64,000 bases of DNA, taken from positions 1 to 64,000 of the forward strand of contig NZ_WHSB02000018.1 in NCBI RefSeq assembly GCF_010994755.1. Reading direction: 5' to 3'. Source of the DNA: Shinella lacus. GTDB lineage: Bacteria > Pseudomonadota > Alphaproteobacteria > Rhizobiales > Rhizobiaceae. The translations under genes and the position numbers were made by a program. This document shows, piece by piece, positions 16,330-23,994 of the stretch. How positions within the stretch are numbered: the stretch's first letter is position 1; each line of letters opens with the position of its first letter. The notes under the pieces were generated by a model. That model was given only the letters and a program-made list of their open reading frames with translations, was not told the DNA's origin and did not search any database.

Positions 16330-16535
16330 GCGGGACCCCTCGGGGCGACACTTGCGAAAAACCTGCCATGCCGAGGTTAAGGAACGCTTCATGTAGCAGC
16401 GGCAGGCGGGCGCTTTCGCGACAGGTTCCATCAAAAAGATTTTACTGTCTGGAATCGTTCAAAATGCAATCATGCTCATGCATCGTTAAACCGGCGGCGC
16501 GGAAACAACCGGCCGCCAGCAATCGGGAGAACTTG

Positions 16536-16979
16536 ATGAAGTTCAGGACATTGGCGGCCGCGGCCGTGCTTGCGGCCATCGGCGCCGGCGCGGTCATCGC
16601 GGCGGACGAACCGCAGGTCGTGCGCCAGGGCATGATGAAGAGTGTGGGCGGTGCCATGGGCGCGCTCGCCGGCATTGCCAAGGGCGAGAAGCCCTATGAC
16701 GCGGAGATCGTCAAGGCATCGCTGACCACGATCAGCGAAGTCGGCAAGGCTTTCCCGGACCAGTTCCCGGCCGGCTCCGAGACGGGCCATGAAACCGAAG
16801 CCAGCCCGAAGATCTGGGAAGCGATGGACGACTTCAAGGCCAAGTCGCTGAAGCTCGGAACGGATGCCGACACGGTGCTCGCCAGCATGCCTGCCGACCA
16901 GGCGGGCGTGGGTGCCGCCCTCGGCACGATCGGTCCGAATTGCGGCGGCTGTCATGAGGTCTACCGCGTTAAGAAATAG
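16536..16979 (+). CDS. Cytochrome c' / c-556 family protein
   Basis: 147 residues with a Sec signal peptide (MKFRTLAAAAVLAAIGAGAVIAA) and a C-terminal haem motif CGGCH at residues 136-140, the usual position in the four-helix cytochrome c' / c-556 family. The mature N-terminus has VVRQGMMKSVGGAMGAL, in which a Met early in helix 1 could be the sixth ligand (c-556 type, low spin) rather than an open site (c' type). GGGAG precedes the ATG. The next gene, a dihaem cytochrome, begins 120 bases downstream, so both may be made together for periplasmic electron transfer. Confidence 0.92.
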   Translation: MKFRTLAAAAVLAAIGAGAVIAADEPQVVRQGMMKSVGGAMGALAGIAKGEKPYDAEIVKASLTTISEVGKAFPDQFPAGSETGHETEASPKIWEAMDDFKAKSLKLGTDADTVLASMPADQAGVGAALGTIGPNCGGCHEVYRVKK

Positions 16980-17099
16980 GCGCGGTAGGCCGGCTCCACC
17001 CCAGAAAAACAAGCACTGTCCCGGCCTCCGTCCGGGGCGGTGCGTTGACGTTTCGATCCGCAAGGACAGGATCGCGCAGGCGGCGAGAGGGAATGGCTC

Positions 17100-18008
17100 A
17101 TGGCACTGAAAAAACTCCTCGGCGGGATCGTCGTGCTGGGCGCGCTCGGCGCGGGCGCCTTTGTCTTCCTCACGGCGCCCGAGCGGCTGCCGGCGGAGAC
17201 CTGGGCTGCGGCGGGCGAACCGGATCTCGCGAACGGTGAGCGCATCTTCCATGCCGGCGGCTGTTCGAGCTGTCATGCGGCACCGGGGGCGGCGGACGAC
17301 CAGAAGCTGGTGCTGGCCGGCGGGCTGGCGCTGAAGAGCCCCTTCGGCACCTTCCACGCGCCGAACATTTCACCGGACGAGACGGCAGGCATCGGGGCGT
17401 GGACGCTCTCGGAATTCGGCGACGCCATGAAGCGCGGCACCGGCCGCGACGGCGAACATCTCTATCCGTCCTTCCCCTACGCCTCCTATGCGCGCATGAC
17501 GGTGAAGGACATCAACGACCTCTATGGCTACCTCAAGACCCTGCCGAAGAGCACGAATGTCGCGCCCGGGCATGAGCTGCCGTTCCCGTTCAACATCCGC
17601 CTGGCGCTCGGCGGCTGGAAGTTCCTCTACCTGAACGAGGCGCCGCGCGTCGAACTGGCGAATGCCGACGAGACGGTCAAGCGCGGCCAGTATCTCGTCG
17701 AAGGCCCCGGCCATTGCGGCGAATGCCACACTCCGCGCGACATGCTGGGCGGGCTGAAGACCGACCAGTGGCTGGCGGGCGGGCCGAACCCGGAAGGCGA
17801 GGGGCGCGTGCCCAACATCACGCCGGCCGAGGGCGGCTTCGGCAGCTGGAGCGCCGGCGACATCGCCAACTACCTCGAAACCGGCTTCACCCCCGACTTC
17901 GACAGTGTCGGCGGCGCCATGGTTTCGGTGCAGAAGAACATGGCGCAACTGCCCAAGGAAGACCGCGACGCCATCGCCGCCTATCTGAAGGCGATCCCCG
18001 TGCGGTGA
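17100..18008 (+). CDS. Dihaem cytochrome c (alcohol-dehydrogenase cytochrome subunit type)
   Basis: 302 residues with an uncleaved or cleaved N-terminal membrane segment (residues 5-25) and two haem motifs, CSSCH at 55-59 and CGECH at 206-210. Each c domain has a distal methionine candidate (YARMTVKDIN; GGAMVSVQKNMAQL). The sequence resembles cytochrome subunits of gluconate, sorbosone and alcohol dehydrogenases and the dihaem proteins linked to sulfite or thiosulfate oxidation. No dehydrogenase partner is encoded next to it. The start at 17100 follows GAGAGGGA; an overlapping ATG at 17093 is in another frame. Confidence 0.88.
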   Translation: MALKKLLGGIVVLGALGAGAFVFLTAPERLPAETWAAAGEPDLANGERIFHAGGCSSCHAAPGAADDQKLVLAGGLALKSPFGTFHAPNISPDETAGIGAWTLSEFGDAMKRGTGRDGEHLYPSFPYASYARMTVKDINDLYGYLKTLPKSTNVAPGHELPFPFNIRLALGGWKFLYLNEAPRVELANADETVKRGQYLVEGPGHCGECHTPRDMLGGLKTDQWLAGGPNPEGEGRVPNITPAEGGFGSWSAGDIANYLETGFTPDFDSVGGAMVSVQKNMAQLPKEDRDAIAAYLKAIPVR

Positions 18009-18040: not shown

Positions 18041-18625
18041 TCAGGCCGGTGCCTTTTTATGTTCATCGCCGTACATGCCGAGATAGCCGAACAGTTCGTC
18101 CGAGCCGAGGCCGATGGCGTTGAGGATTTCGCGGGCAAAGCTGACGGGTGCGGCACCCGAGGCGGTGATGACGCCGCGGTCGCGCACGGCCTGCGGCTGG
18201 TTGCGGTAGAGCGCTTCGCCCCGATAGGCGGGGCCGACCTGCTTCATCTGCCCGGAAAAATTGCCGGTATGGGCACGATCGTCGAGCAGGCCGAGGCGGG
18301 CGAGTTCCAGCGTGGCGTCGCAGATCCCGGCGACGGGCTTGCCGGCGGCCATGAAACGCCCGACCGGAGCCGATAGGTCGGGCGCGGCATCCGATTGCCA
18401 GATCGTGCCGCCGCAGAGCACCAGCACGTCGAAACCGTCGGGCGAAACCGCTTCTACCGCCCCGGCTGAACTGATGGAGACGCCGCCGAGCGAGGTGACG
18501 CCGGCGCCGCCGGGCGTCAGCACCACGGTTTCCGCCCCGCAGTCGCCGCGCGCCGTCGCCATCAGCAGCCCGCATTCCCAGTCGGCGTAACCCTCCGTCA
18601 GAACGATTGCCAGTCGCTTCGCCAT
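18041..18625 (-). CDS. DJ-1/PfpI-family glutamine amidotransferase-like protein
   Basis: 194 residues. The nucleophile-elbow cysteine is C102 in VAGICDATLELARLG, preceded by LVLCGGTIWQ and followed by HTGNFSGQMKQVGPAYRG. This branch of the DJ-1/PfpI superfamily includes stress-associated hydrolases and glyoxalase III-type enzymes. The activity cannot be fixed from sequence. The gene lies 25 bases downstream of the acetyltransferase gene on the same strand, so it is probably cotranscribed with it and subject to the same upstream attenuator. Confidence 0.88.
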   Translation of the reverse strand: MAKRLAIVLTEGYADWECGLLMATARGDCGAETVVLTPGGAGVTSLGGVSISSAGAVEAVSPDGFDVLVLCGGTIWQSDAAPDLSAPVGRFMAAGKPVAGICDATLELARLGLLDDRAHTGNFSGQMKQVGPAYRGEALYRNQPQAVRDRGVITASGAAPVSFAREILNAIGLGSDELFGYLGMYGDEHKKAPA

Positions 18626-18650: not shown

Positions 18651-19151
18651 TCAGCCCAGCGCCTGTACGTAGCGCATGCCGGTGACCGGGCCGGCGCGGA
18701 AATTCATCTGCTCGTAGAAGCGGTGCGCGCCGAAATTGCCGGTCGCGGCGCTCACGGAAAGGTAGCCGCAGCCGGCAATGCGGGCGTGCTCGCGGGCGCG
18801 GGAAACGAGGTGGCGGCCGATGCCGTGGCCGCGATTGTCCTTGCGCACGAAGATCTGGTGCAGCTCCATGCCGCGCAGGCCTTCCAGCGCGCGGTAGAGC
18901 GGAACGAGCAGTGCGTAGCCGATCAGCCGTCCGCCGGCTTCGGCCACAAGGGCCGTGACCCAGGGATTGTTGCCGAACAGGTCGCGGTCGAGATCGGCGG
19001 CGGAGATCCTGGCGGTGTCGCCGTGGCATTCGGCATGCAGCGCGATCATGTCGAGGATCTGCTGCAGGTCGCCCGGGCGCGCGGCGCGGATGGTCAGCAT
19101 CGGCGGGCGTTCGAGGGCATTCGGTTCAAGCTTGATGACGGTATTGTGCAT
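18651..19151 (-). CDS. GNAT-family N-acetyltransferase behind an attenuator
   Basis: 166 residues. The acetyl-CoA site is the motif A segment HQIFVRKDNRGHGIGRHLV (R/Q-x-x-G-x-G/A as RGHGIG), with motif B in GCGYLSVSAATGNFGAHRFYEQMNF. The arrangement resembles small-molecule acetylating GNATs such as polyamine or aminoglycoside acetyltransferases; the substrate is unknown. A strong ribosome site, AAGGAG, lies seven bases before the ATG at 19151. Upstream, a probable promoter, a 16-codon leaderless ORF and a terminator-like hairpin with a competing alternative stem suggest ribosome-dependent control of transcription into this gene and the DJ-1 gene after it. Confidence 0.9.
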   Translation of the reverse strand: MHNTVIKLEPNALERPPMLTIRAARPGDLQQILDMIALHAECHGDTARISAADLDRDLFGNNPWVTALVAEAGGRLIGYALLVPLYRALEGLRGMELHQIFVRKDNRGHGIGRHLVSRAREHARIAGCGYLSVSAATGNFGAHRFYEQMNFRAGPVTGMRYVQALG

Positions 19152-19189
19152 TTCGGGCTCCTTCGGTTTTCTGCCATCAGGTGCCTTAG

Positions 19190-19217
19190 AAACAACAAAG
19201 CCGCCTGACGGCGGCTT
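19190..19217 (-). terminator. Terminator hairpin of the putative attenuator
   Basis: On the minus strand AAGCCGCC (19217-19210), loop GTCA, GGCGGCTT (19205-19198) and the U-rich tail TGTTGTTT form a rho-independent terminator 26 bases after the leader-peptide stop and about 40 bases before the acetyltransferase start. An upstream segment AGCGGCT (19240-19234) can pair with the 5' arm (six bp, GCGGCT with AGCCGC), giving a mutually exclusive antiterminator. Confidence 0.75.
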
Positions 19218-19242
19218 GTTGACATGATCAATCAGCCGCTCC

Positions 19243-19293
19243 TTATCGGAACAGCCAAAAATACGTTGCGGCGATGTGCGTGCTCTTGATCAT
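19243..19293 (-). CDS. Leader peptide of putative attenuator (MIKSTHIAATYFWLFR)
   Basis: A 16-codon ORF ATG...TAA with the peptide MIKSTHIAATYFWLFR, ending in a Tyr-Phe-Trp-Leu-Phe run. The only sigma-70-like promoter (19301-19328) places the transcript start at or within two bases of the A of this ATG, so the ORF would be translated from a leaderless mRNA, as in the known rhizobial trpL leader. Codons 7-9 contain CGCCGC (19273-19268), which can pair with GCGGC (19239-19235) just after the stop, so ribosome position on the aromatic codons could select between terminator and antiterminator. Confidence 0.65.
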   Translation of the reverse strand: MIKSTHIAATYFWLFR

Positions 19294-19300
19294 GGACGCG

Positions 19301-19328
19301 ATATTCTCCGTTTCGCGCCGTTTGTCAA
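19301..19328 (-). promoter_or_regulatory. Sigma-70-like promoter of the attenuator transcript
   Basis: Minus strand: TTGACA (19328-19323) and GAATAT (19306-19301). Measured against the rhizobial CTTGAC-N17-CTATAT consensus, the spacing is exactly 17. The predicted start, six to eight bases past the -10 box, falls at 19295-19293, on the leader-peptide ATG. Confidence 0.65.
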
Positions 19329-21660: not shown

Positions 21661-23994
21661 TTACGGCAGCGTATAGGCGATGACGTAGTCGCCGGGCTTG
21701 GTGCCGACGGAGCCGTGGCCGCCGGCGACGATCAGGACATATTGCTTCTGGCCGACCGTGTAGGTCATCGGCGTCGCCTGGCCGCCGGCGGGAAGCCGGG
21801 CTTCCCAGAGCTGGTTGCCGCTCGTCACGTCATAGGCGCGCAGATAGTCGTCGACCGCGGCACCGAGGAAGGCGATGCCGCCCTTGGTGATGATCGGGCC
21901 GCCGATGCCGGGCACGCCGACCTTGAAGGGCAGCGGCAGCGGCGTCATGTCCATGACCGTGCCGTTCTTGTGCTTGTAGGCGATCTTGCCGGTGGCAAGG
22001 TCGGCACCCGCGACATAGCCCCATGGCGGCGCCTGGCAGGGAATGCCGAGCGGCCCGAGGAACGGCCCCATGAAGACGCCGTAGGGGGCGCCGTCATTGC
22101 GGTTGAGGCCCTGTTCGGAACCTTTCTCGTCCTGTCCCTTCGGCGGGATCTGGTCACGCGGAACGAGGCGGGAGGTGAAGGCGAGGTAGGTCGGCATGCC
22201 GAACATCACCTGCCGCTCCGGATCCACCGCGACGGAGCCCCAGTTGAACGTGCCGAAATTGCCGGGATAGACGATCGTGCCTTCCAGCGACGGCGGCGTG
22301 TAGCGGCCTTCGTATTTCATCGACAGGAAGTCGATGCGGCACGCCAACTGGTCGAACATGGTGATGCCCCACATGTTCTTCTCGGTCAGCGGCGGGGGCG
22401 AGAAGGTGAGGTCGGAGATCGGCTGGGTGGGCGCGGTGAAATCCTCCGGGATGGCGCCGGTGGGCGCCGGAATTTCCTTGACCCCGATGATCGGCTCGCC
22501 GGTGCGCCGGTCGAGCACGTAGATGTCGCCCTGCTTGGTCGGGCCGACGAGGGCGGGGATGGTGGCGCCCTCGCGGGTGATGTCGATCAGCGCCGGCTGG
22601 GCCGGCACGTCCATGTCCCAGAGGTCGTGGTGCACCGTCTGGCGCACCCAGCGAACGGCCCCGCTCTTGATGTCGAGCGCGACGATGGAGGACGAATACT
22701 TCTCGACATGCTCGCTGCGGCCCATGCCGAGCTGGTCGGGCACGCGGTTGCCGAGCGGGATATAGACCAGGCCGAGCGCCTCGTCATAGCTGAAGACCGA
22801 CCAGGAATTCGGCGAGTTGACGGTATAGACCTGGCCTTCCGGCAGCGGCGTCGTGACGTCCGGATTGCCGGAATCCCAGTTCCAGACGAGCGCGCCGGAA
22901 TTGACGTCGAAGGCGCGGATCACGCCTGATTGCGACTGGGTCGAATAGTTGTCGTTGACCGCGCCGCCGATGATGATCTTGCCGTCGGTGATCACCGGTG
23001 GCGAGGTGGAATAGTAGTAGCCGGCCGGGTTGAAGGGCATGCCCTGTTCGAGCTGCAGCACGCCGTTCTGGGCGAAGCTGGTGCAGACATCGCCGGTGGC
23101 CGCGTCGAGCGCGATCAGGCGGGCGTCCGAGGTGGGCAGGTAGACGCGGGTGGCGCAGGTCGTGCCGGCGGTGGCGGCGGGGTCGGCATAATAGGTCACG
23201 CCGCGGCAGGTCTGGTGCTGGCGGTCCGGGTTCATGCCGGAGTTGGAATCATATTTCCACTTCTCCTTGCCGGTCGCGGCATCGAGCGCGATCGCCCAAT
23301 TGTGCGGCGTGCACATGTACAGCGTGTCGCCCACCTTCAGCGGCGTCACCTGGTAGGTCGTCTCGCCGACGTCGTCGGGCAGCTTCACGTCGCCGGTCTG
23401 GTATTGCCAGGCGACCTTGAGCGTCGAAACATTGTCCGTGTTGATCTGGTCGAGCGGCGAATAGCGCTGACCATATTGCGTGCGGCCATACTGGTGCCAT
23501 TCGCCGGCCGGCACGTTGCCGCCGAGTGCGGGCGTGGCGTTGACGATATCGGTCGGCAGGTCGCCGGCCATGTCATGCGGGTCCTGCGTCAGCGAAAAGC
23601 CGGCAACGCCGATCGCGACGAGCACGGCGACCGCGAGCGGCAGGGCGGAGGCGGCATAGCTTGTGCCGGTGGGGCTGGCAAAACCGAGCGGCCGGCGGAT
23701 GGCGGGCAGCATCAGCCACAGGCCGAGCAGCACGATGACGCCGCCGCGCGGCCCAAGCTGCCACCAGTCGAAGCCGACTTCCCAGATGCCCCAGCCGAGC
23801 GAGCCGAGAATGATCAGCGCATAGAGCCACAGCGCCGCACTGGAGCGGCGCACAAGCAGGATGGCAGTGACGATGAAGGCAATGCCGGTGACGAGGTAAT
23901 AGGGGCTGCCGCCGAGCGACAGCAGCCACCCGCCTCCGCCCGTCAGCACCAATCCGATGATGGCGAAGAGGGCGGCGGTCAGCGTGAGCAACAT
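21661..23994 (-). CDS. gcd: Membrane-bound PQQ-dependent glucose dehydrogenase
   Basis: 777 residues, close to E. coli Gcd (796). Five membrane helices occupy about residues 5-145, followed by a quinoprotein beta-propeller with repeated tryptophan-docking segments (LKVAWQYQTGDV, VGDTLYMCTPHNWAIALDAATGKEKWKYD, ARLIALDAATGDVC, GNQLWEARLPAGG). It oxidises aldose sugars in the periplasm to lactones and passes electrons to ubiquinone, which acidifies the surroundings and dissolves mineral phosphate. CGGAG lies upstream of the ATG. PQQ biosynthesis genes are not in the window, so the cofactor comes from a distant pqq locus or from outside. Confidence 0.95.
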   Translation of the reverse strand: MLLTLTAALFAIIGLVLTGGGGWLLSLGGSPYYLVTGIAFIVTAILLVRRSSAALWLYALIILGSLGWGIWEVGFDWWQLGPRGGVIVLLGLWLMLPAIRRPLGFASPTGTSYAASALPLAVAVLVAIGVAGFSLTQDPHDMAGDLPTDIVNATPALGGNVPAGEWHQYGRTQYGQRYSPLDQINTDNVSTLKVAWQYQTGDVKLPDDVGETTYQVTPLKVGDTLYMCTPHNWAIALDAATGKEKWKYDSNSGMNPDRQHQTCRGVTYYADPAATAGTTCATRVYLPTSDARLIALDAATGDVCTSFAQNGVLQLEQGMPFNPAGYYYSTSPPVITDGKIIIGGAVNDNYSTQSQSGVIRAFDVNSGALVWNWDSGNPDVTTPLPEGQVYTVNSPNSWSVFSYDEALGLVYIPLGNRVPDQLGMGRSEHVEKYSSSIVALDIKSGAVRWVRQTVHHDLWDMDVPAQPALIDITREGATIPALVGPTKQGDIYVLDRRTGEPIIGVKEIPAPTGAIPEDFTAPTQPISDLTFSPPPLTEKNMWGITMFDQLACRIDFLSMKYEGRYTPPSLEGTIVYPGNFGTFNWGSVAVDPERQVMFGMPTYLAFTSRLVPRDQIPPKGQDEKGSEQGLNRNDGAPYGVFMGPFLGPLGIPCQAPPWGYVAGADLATGKIAYKHKNGTVMDMTPLPLPFKVGVPGIGGPIITKGGIAFLGAAVDDYLRAYDVTSGNQLWEARLPAGGQATPMTYTVGQKQYVLIVAGGHGSVGTKPGDYVIAYTLP

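Follow-up and report, generated by a model that had tools for sequence, protein, structure and literature searches.

A conserved leader upstream of a GNAT acetyltransferase gene in Rhizobiaceae, with segments like those of a trp-type attenuator and covarying helices that reach the Shine-Dalgarno region

The window, i.e. the whole 64,000 nucleotide stretch of the Shinella lacus genome analysed here, carries on its minus strand a gene for a GNAT-family N-acetyltransferase (hereafter GNAT) followed by a gene for a DJ-1/PfpI-family protein. Between a putative promoter and the GNAT gene lies a leader composed of a short open reading frame (ORF) and a series of segments with alternative pairing partners (Table 1). 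The promoter (TTGAC-N17-GAATAT) and the 16-codon ORF described in an initial annotation of this DNA are read as described, at 19328-19301 and 19293-19243 respectively, and directly after the stop codon of the ORF comes AGCGGCT, followed by segments 3 and 4. A terminator scan of 3 kb recovered the 8-pair terminator stem at 19217-19198. Taken alone this hairpin is not significant, as the 3 kb hold 5 terminator-like sites versus 2.8 +/- 1.7 in shuffles, and a sigma-70 promoter scan left the leader promoter below its threshold. The case for a regulatory leader therefore stands on conservation. Rfam gave 0 matches within the window at gathering score, the best being STnc50 with 20.5 bits (gathering score 55) and an E-value of 0.3.

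Table 1. Position and basis of the leader parts and of the two adjacent genes in the window.
Feature	Position	Strand	Basis
Leader as a whole	19293-19156	-	Conserved upstream of GNAT gene
Putative promoter, TTGACA (19328-19323) and GAATAT (19306-19301)	19301..19328	-	Sequence; TTGAC-to-ATG distance kept
Leader ORF MIKSTHIAATYFWLFR*, 16 codons, ATG at 19293	19243..19293	-	ORF with Tyr-Phe in 107/110 loci
Proposed control codons in leader ORF, Tyr11 (UAU), Phe12 (UUU), then Trp13		-	Conservation
Segment 1a, AUGAUCAA	19286..19293	-	Complement of UUGAUCAU (19231-19224, 2/3 loop); free-RNA fold
Segment 1b, ORF tail	19248..19258	-	Pairs with segment 2 in fold of untranslated window leader
Segment 2, GGAGCGGCU	19234..19242	-	GCGGC pairs invariant across 89 leaders
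Segment 3, AAGCCGCC	19210..19217	-	2:3 and 3:4 pairing over 89 leaders
Segment 4, GGCGGCUU (GGCGGCTT), and U-rich tail	19198..19205	-	3' arm of predicted terminator 3:4
Segment L, GCCGUCAGG, terminator loop and flanks	19204..19212	-	Pairs with segment 5, covariation
Segment 5, GGCACCUGAUGGC, 3' of U-tract	19173..19185	-	CCUGAUGGC part pairs with L; GGCACCU part pairs with segment 6
Segment 6, AGGAGCC, GNAT Shine-Dalgarno region	19156..19162	-	5:6 covariation
GNAT-family N-acetyltransferase, 166 aa, presumed controlled gene	18651..19151	-	Pfam Acetyltransf_1, E 6.4e-17
DJ-1/PfpI-family protein, starts 25 nt past GNAT	18041..18625	-	Pfam DJ-1_PfpI, E 1.1e-21

A GNAT ortholog was found in all 20 genomes of the same genus searched and in six more distant genomes of the family (53-83% identity), and the leader is present at all 27 of these loci, the window's own included. 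In a set of 110 loci, composed of the first loci and the best 80 of 511 GNAT matches with some genomes in both, a leader-type ORF stands upstream of GNAT in 107, the three loci lacking it being those of GNATs of only 32-35% identity. This set comprises 90 distinct leaders, 65 distinct ORFs and 50 distinct peptides; cutting at 140 nt leaves 89 distinct leaders, which are the basis of the segment pairing counts and are phylogenetically related, so that the paired cells counted in them are not independent events. A leader model (R1) built from the first set was applied to 394 Rhizobiaceae genomes, which overlap that set. A GNAT ortholog (E-value 1e-25 or better) occurs in 101 of these genomes, from 23 of the 109 genera, and a leader match of at least 37 bits lies directly upstream (9-122 nt) of all 101 orthologs. 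The arrangement noted in the initial annotation is thereby confirmed, apart from one element, the CGCCGC motif discussed below. The 394 genomes hold 108 matches of at least 37 bits in total, and the seven which have no GNAT each contain two Tyr codons. At an E-value of 0.01 some R1 match is found in 182 of the 394 family genomes and in 116 of 397 genomes of the order, only the 108 family matches of at least 37 bits being counted here; weak matches limited to positions from about 77 on resemble generic terminators and were dropped.

The TTGAC element begins 34-36 nt upstream of the leader ATG in 104 of the 107 loci and 38-39 nt upstream in the other three. This near-constant distance predicts a transcript start at or beside the leader AUG, which fits a leaderless ORF. 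In Sinorhizobium meliloti, 171 leaderless transcripts starting with AUG are described (PMC3616915), and rhizobial trpL is named among the leaderless transcripts of this species (PMC10117765, PMC7298713). The ORF is 16 or 17 codons long in the 65 distinct ORFs, and in these only the start Met and a Tyr-Phe pair are invariant. Counted from the stop, codon -6 is always Tyr (UAU in 63, UAC in 2) and codon -5 is UUU for Phe in 65/65, while codon -4 encodes Trp in 57 and Thr in 8. When the codon three beyond the Phe codon encodes Phe or Tyr, it is always UUC (40) or UAC (17). As UUU makes up just 9 of the 77 Phe codons in seven genes of the window (UAU accounts for 37 of the 71 Tyr codons), the fixed UUU at 19260-19258 and in the orthologs is noteworthy. 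Most residues outside Tyr-Phe drift, the C-terminal residue being R, P, L, S or Q; no conserved arrest peptide is seen among the 65 ORFs (50 peptides), and the leader peptide gave no match in NCBIfam. The position of the Tyr codon is also kept, being 23 or 24 nt 5' of segment 2 in all 89 leaders. Scarcity of charged Tyr, Phe or Trp tRNA had been put forward as a possible signal; the invariant Tyr-Phe agrees with this, whereas Trp is evidently not essential.

A predicted intrinsic terminator, formed by segments 3 and 4, sits between the ORF and the gene, and an antiterminator formed by segments 2 and 3 is mutually exclusive with it. Both had been proposed from the window, and both are borne out in the 89 leaders: 3:4 is paired in 99.7% of cells, with six of the eight pairs invariant, and 2:3 in 98.5%. 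Helix 2:3 has 26 double-change cells versus 10.3 in shuffles, all of them at one pair, and its count of pair types is not higher than in shuffles. The CGCCGC motif in the ORF, drawn as the partner of segment 2, can pair with it in the window but is paired in only 56.9% of cells over the 89 leaders, with no double change. Hence the alignment upstream of orthologous genes, which had been suggested as a check, upholds the ORF, helix 3:4 and helix 2:3 with its one covarying pair, but not CGCCGC as segment 1. Two other candidates for such a segment emerge from the free RNA of the window leader, which folds with the ORF tail (segment 1b) on segment 2 and with AUGAUCAA on UUGAUCAU. Helix 1b:2 is paired in 87.9% of cells in the 89 leaders, with 2 double-change cells, no more than in shuffles. 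The hexamer at the start of the ORF matches the loop between segments 2 and 3 at 6/6 positions in 65 leaders, at 5/6 in 15 and at 4/6 in 9, while shuffled loops match it at 6/6 in just 2.6%.

The same 89 leaders were folded with a modelled ribosome whose edge lies 12 nt beyond the first base of the codon in its A site. If this ribosome stands at the Tyr or the Phe codon, the probability of 2:3 before segment 4 is made is 0.98 or 0.99; with the ribosome at the stop codon, where segment 2 is masked by construction, that of 3:4 is 1.00. Once the complete leader is folded to equilibrium, 3:4 always prevails (probability 0.90 or more), even when the Tyr codon is occupied by the ribosome, and 2:3 would accordingly have to act through timing. 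Without a ribosome, 2:3 has a mean probability of 0.61 in the RNA that still lacks segment 4 and exceeds 0.5 in 58 of the 89 leaders. A protecting 1:2 helix therefore does not appear to be general, and an untranslated leader would not clearly be OFF. In the window's own untranslated leader 1:2 is predicted to form and 3:4 would be expected next, a behaviour that is not reliable across all leaders.

Two segments, 5 and 6, had been missed in the initial annotation, and through them the Shine-Dalgarno region of GNAT may come under the same switch. The CCUGAUGGC part of segment 5, just past the U-tract, complements the loop of the terminator together with its flanking bases, GCC(G/A)UCAGG (segment L), and four bases earlier segment 5 complements the Shine-Dalgarno region. 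Helix L:5 is paired in 99.1% of cells in the 89 leaders and has 38 double-change cells versus 10.4 in shuffles (none of 500 reaching the count), slid registers giving at most 3; in the wider set A3 of 94 leaders the corresponding values are 95.1% and 44 versus 15.4. Helix 5:6 exists as GGCACCU:AGGAGCC, GCGUCCU:AGGACGC, GCAUCCU:AGGAUGC and further types. It is paired in 79.5% of cells and has 42 double-change cells versus 12.0 in shuffles (0/500 reaching it) and at most 9 in slid registers. The 5:6 count is lowered by alignment A3, which misplaces the bulged segment 6 of Neorhizobium-type leaders. Its further pair types (10) are not clearly over those of shuffles, 146 of 500 reaching that count. 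Permuting segments 5 and 6 over 29 distinct classes gave at most 5.62 matches out of 7 in 1000 permutations versus 5.83 observed, and permuting L and 5 over 14 distinct classes gave at most 8.14 out of 9 in 2000 permutations versus 8.36 observed; both tests favour a leader's own pairs, as segment 5 had been placed where it matches L best and segment 6 where it matches 5 best, while the covariation counts for the two helices are independent of this placing. As sequence features, helices L:5 and 5:6 are thus well supported, and L:5 is also kept at 9/9 positions in ten tyrS leaders (L169-L178).

Since L lies within the terminator hairpin, 3:4 conceals it and 2:3 releases it. The effect of this on segments 5 and 6 was folded for 81 of 102 distinct leaders, namely those in the 94-leader list in which a 9-nt loop window has at least 8 matches to segment 5, a selection that favours L:5. 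Before segment 6 is made, L:5 has a probability of 0.91 with 2:3 forced (over 0.5 in 79 of these 81 leaders) and of 0, as the set-up dictates, with 3:4 forced. When the selected leaders are folded at full length, 5:6 has a probability of 0.80 with 3:4 forced versus 0.47 with 2:3 forced, and in the latter state L:5 reaches 0.37 versus the 0.47 of 5:6. When 30 nt of the GNAT gene are included (88 of the 89 leaders), L:5 reaches only 0.10 with 2:3 forced, and the accessibility of the Shine-Dalgarno region is unchanged, 0.25 versus 0.26, being more open in 10 leaders and less in 4. The second step of the relay proposed below is thus not seen in equilibrium folds. As the equilibrium folds reveal no opening of the Shine-Dalgarno, L:5 and 5:6 might instead form a pseudoknot that keeps it closed until another signal arrives, or L:5 might play some other role, so that the sign of a second lock would be opposite or the lock absent. 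The two helices share only the CCU of segment 5, which makes a partial pseudoknot conceivable, but for the same reason the complete helices exclude each other, and the timing calculation favours formation of L:5 before segment 6 is made. Such alternatives for L:5 are on the whole doubtful, yet carry appreciable weight.

The reading that one would draw from the window alone, an attenuator with aromatic codons, gains from the genes which follow similar leaders elsewhere. The seven non-GNAT matches in the family, with their Tyr-Tyr codons (L169-L175, from genus g112 and G314), are read as tyrS leaders, by translation of the following gene in L169, L172 and L175, with L172 also confirmed by NCBIfam, and by near-identical leaders in the other four; in L175 the tyrS frame soon diverges from TyrRS and appears truncated. 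Beyond Rhizobiaceae, 11 full-length matches with an E-value below 1e-4 were inspected together with L208. Seven matches outside the family are tyrS leaders, five by translation (L176, L177, L183, L185 and L186, all but L183 also by NCBIfam) and L178 and L184 by near-identical leaders. Another three (L179, L180 and L182), from three families of the order, precede a prephenate-dehydrogenase-like gene, which is over the Pfam cut-off and under that of NCBIfam. Two trpE leaders, L191 and L192, are weak matches within the family (26.7 and 25.8 bits), the gene being identified in L191 by a match to the anthranilate synthase model over its 414 residues and in L192 by translation. The organism's own trpE leader (L212), with the ORF MEKMIIIAGWWWAR*, gives a full-length but non-significant R1 match (14.5 bits, E 1.55). 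Among 40 regions, L181, L189, L190, L193, L207 and L208 were judged by eye not to be such leaders, and no such leader was seen in the stretch read before the organism's own tyrS (L209). In Rhizobiales, trpE, tyrS, prephenate-dehydrogenase-like genes and GNAT can thus all be preceded by look-alike leaders.

In each of these groups the codons correspond to the pathway of the gene that follows. The tyrS-type leaders have Tyr-Tyr 24 and 21 nt from segment 2 in 9 of 12 cases and 22 and 19 nt from it in L175, while in L183 and L185 the codons are Y, F, Y, Y, the first 27 nt and the last 18 nt away. The prephenate-dehydrogenase-like leaders have Tyr-Tyr at 23 and 20 nt (L179, L180) or 22 and 19 nt (L182), and the trpE leaders L191, L192 and the organism's own have Trp codons at 19, 16 and 13 nt. 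In the leaders of trpE, tyrS and the prephenate-dehydrogenase-like genes, Trp or Tyr codons matching the pathway thus stand at similar distances from segment 2, and of the two signals that the initial annotation had offered a shortage of charged aromatic tRNA is therefore preferred. The other signal, a drug which arrests the ribosome during synthesis of the leader peptide (YFWLFR), thereby inducing a drug-inactivating acetyltransferase, draws some plausibility from the drug-modifying enzymes known in GNAT families, from sub-threshold NCBIfam matches of the GNAT itself and from the existence of stall-dependent resistance attenuators such as Bacillus subtilis tlrB (PMC6851288). Nothing positive was found for it here, and the wide drift of the peptide outside Tyr-Phe (50 peptides), the own-pathway codons of the sister leaders and the lack of any NCBIfam resistance model over its cut-off among the matches listed (25 of 33) all argue against it. 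So does the leader of a GNAT of 42% identity (L188), which has W, F, Y, Y, i.e. aromatic codons in another order, as would be expected if codons rather than a fixed peptide are what is kept. We regard a drug sensor as very improbable. An observation against an aromatic signal comes from the more distant GNAT L222 (G537, of another family), the ORF of which, MNLVQNHLNSYHRRLN, stands 5' of a segment-3-like AUGCCGCC with Tyr at 23 nt but His as the next codon; before another distant relative, L223, no leader was seen.

The fixed codons could also report on tRNA modification rather than on charging. The tRNAs for UAU, UUU and UGG usually carry (ms2)i6A37, the loss of which slows decoding, and both the UUU found in every distinct ORF in spite of its rarity in the seven genes of the window and the restriction to UUC or UAC three codons further on point in this direction. 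However, UUU may keep the region unstructured or may be the slower codon under ordinary starvation, and the tyrS and trpE leaders fit charging; reading of modification is accordingly judged quite unlikely. A further alternative is that the terminated leader works mainly in trans, its small RNA and its peptide acting in the manner of S. meliloti rnTrpL/peTrpL, with control of GNAT being secondary. The architecture is that of rhizobial trpL, the RNA and peptide of which are described as acting in trans (PMC7298713), and a terminator loop left unpaired might bind other mRNAs. Yet covariation links this loop to segment 5 in the mRNA to which it belongs, and the 108 matches of at least 37 bits in the 394 genomes all precede GNAT or, in seven cases, are of the tyrS type, a constancy of context which together with the covariation argues for control in cis. 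A mainly trans-acting role is thus unlikely, and would be compatible with, rather than exclusive of, attenuation of GNAT in cis.

Taken together, the conservation, the covariation of 2:3, L:5 and 5:6, the position of the codons and the sister leaders lead to the main reading, according to which the leader is probably a ribosome-mediated attenuator which responds to poorly charged Tyr and Phe tRNAs (often also Trp) and controls GNAT through a relay of six segments. The initial annotation had drawn the same kind of device, and its trp-type attenuator and the leaderless position of the ORF are retained, while segment 1 as drawn is given up; the same segments recur in the organism's own trpE leader. 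The helices are read from alignments; the direction of each switch, their order in time, the sign of L:5, the signal and the role of the enzyme are what we infer from them. RNA polymerase would start at or beside the leader AUG and a ribosome would translate the 16-17 codon ORF. When Tyr and Phe tRNAs are charged, the ribosome would proceed to the stop codon and mask segment 2, 3:4 would form and transcription would end. A ribosome stalled at UAU or UUU would leave segment 2 free to pair with segment 3 before segment 4 exists, allowing read-through; with segment 3 held by 2, L would be free to pair with segment 5 once this is made, and segment 6 would not be hidden by 5. A transcript that leaks through with 3:4 folded would have L locked, 5:6 would form and GNAT would not be translated. 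The OFF state would thus consist of 3:4 and 5:6, and the ON state of 2:3 and L:5 with the Shine-Dalgarno free, locking GNAT twice, at RNA synthesis and then at translation.

In its full form, in which a single decision about the position of a ribosome sets both termination and exposure of the Shine-Dalgarno, so that Rhizobiaceae make this GNAT only under aromatic stress, perhaps to acetylate a toxic analogue of an aromatic or shikimate-pathway compound or to carry out an unrecognised step of aromatic metabolism, the proposal is tentative and falls somewhat short of an even chance. It points to attenuators in which one ribosome governs, besides termination, a further lock on translation, and the covariation is strong enough to guide point mutations.

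The closest known system is the rhizobial trpL-trpE(G) attenuator (S. meliloti rnTrpL/peTrpL), which has a leaderless short ORF, as predicted for the GNAT leader, and likewise has control codons and helices 2:3 and 3:4; the organism's own trpE leader even shares the near-identical segment sequences ACAAGCCGCC and GGCGGCUUU with the GNAT leader. In contrast to it, the GNAT leader controls GNAT, has Tyr-Phe codons and has covarying helices between loop and 5 and between 5 and 6, the latter involving the Shine-Dalgarno. In two of the three trpE leaders (L212, the organism's own, and L192), AAGCCGCC, a near copy of segment 3, occurs 3' of the trp terminator; this copy could pair with segment 4, and the trp leader may thus have a fifth segment. 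The trp and phe attenuators of Escherichia coli have the same segment logic and control codons near segment 2, but differ in that their leader ORF has its own ribosome site and in that their targets are biosynthetic. We know of no conserved Shine-Dalgarno lock in them. Multi-segment translational attenuators of the erm type resemble the GNAT leader in that successive segments pair alternately up to a Shine-Dalgarno; unlike it they are drug-dependent and lack a terminator decision made by amino-acid codons. The leader of tlrB (yxjB) in B. subtilis combines transcription attenuation and a hairpin sequestering the Shine-Dalgarno, but there the stall is tylosin-dependent and occurs at an RYR motif, the stalled ribosome itself blocks both structures, and no antiterminator is reported (PMC6851288). 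The uORF attenuator of S. meliloti duf1127-1 is likewise rhizobial, uORF-dependent and placed before a non-biosynthetic gene, and differs in having its own ribosome binding site, in its response to tetracycline and in its mechanism, which is attributed to accessibility of C-rich codons, presumably to Rho (PMC12218461). Literature searches found no report of the GNAT leader, and a comparison of proteobacterial attenuators from 2004 could include some of the sister leaders; new here are the covarying helices L:5 and 5:6 past the terminator.

The presumed target of the leader is GNAT, sometimes with DJ-1, and not an amino-acid biosynthesis gene. Both genes had been named as controlled, and GNAT stands as such, while DJ-1 is not a fixed partner: a tblastn search (E 1e-8) locates it behind GNAT at 70 of the 121 loci, S. 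meliloti (L090) not being one of them. In the window the two genes are probably co-transcribed. The GNAT has no known link to aromatic amino acids, which counts against the main reading. Among the NCBIfam matches listed for the enzyme (25 of 33) none is over its cut-off, and a sequence search of solved structures gave 26 matches, including SSAT2 and the thialysine and phosphinothricin acetyltransferases, relatives that are too general for a substrate to be assigned. If the enzyme is induced under aromatic stress, a role in detoxifying an analogue of an aromatic or shikimate-pathway compound would be fitting, and the tie to aromatic amino-acid status would point directly towards the substrate of this uncharacterised acetyltransferase. 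In the window, GNAT has cytochrome c genes and a PQQ-dehydrogenase-like gene in its vicinity (16476-18008, 21661-23994), and the same neighbours were seen by eye in the flanks of some relatives (L066, L090, L100); the surroundings of GNAT are perhaps a stable chromosomal neighbourhood.
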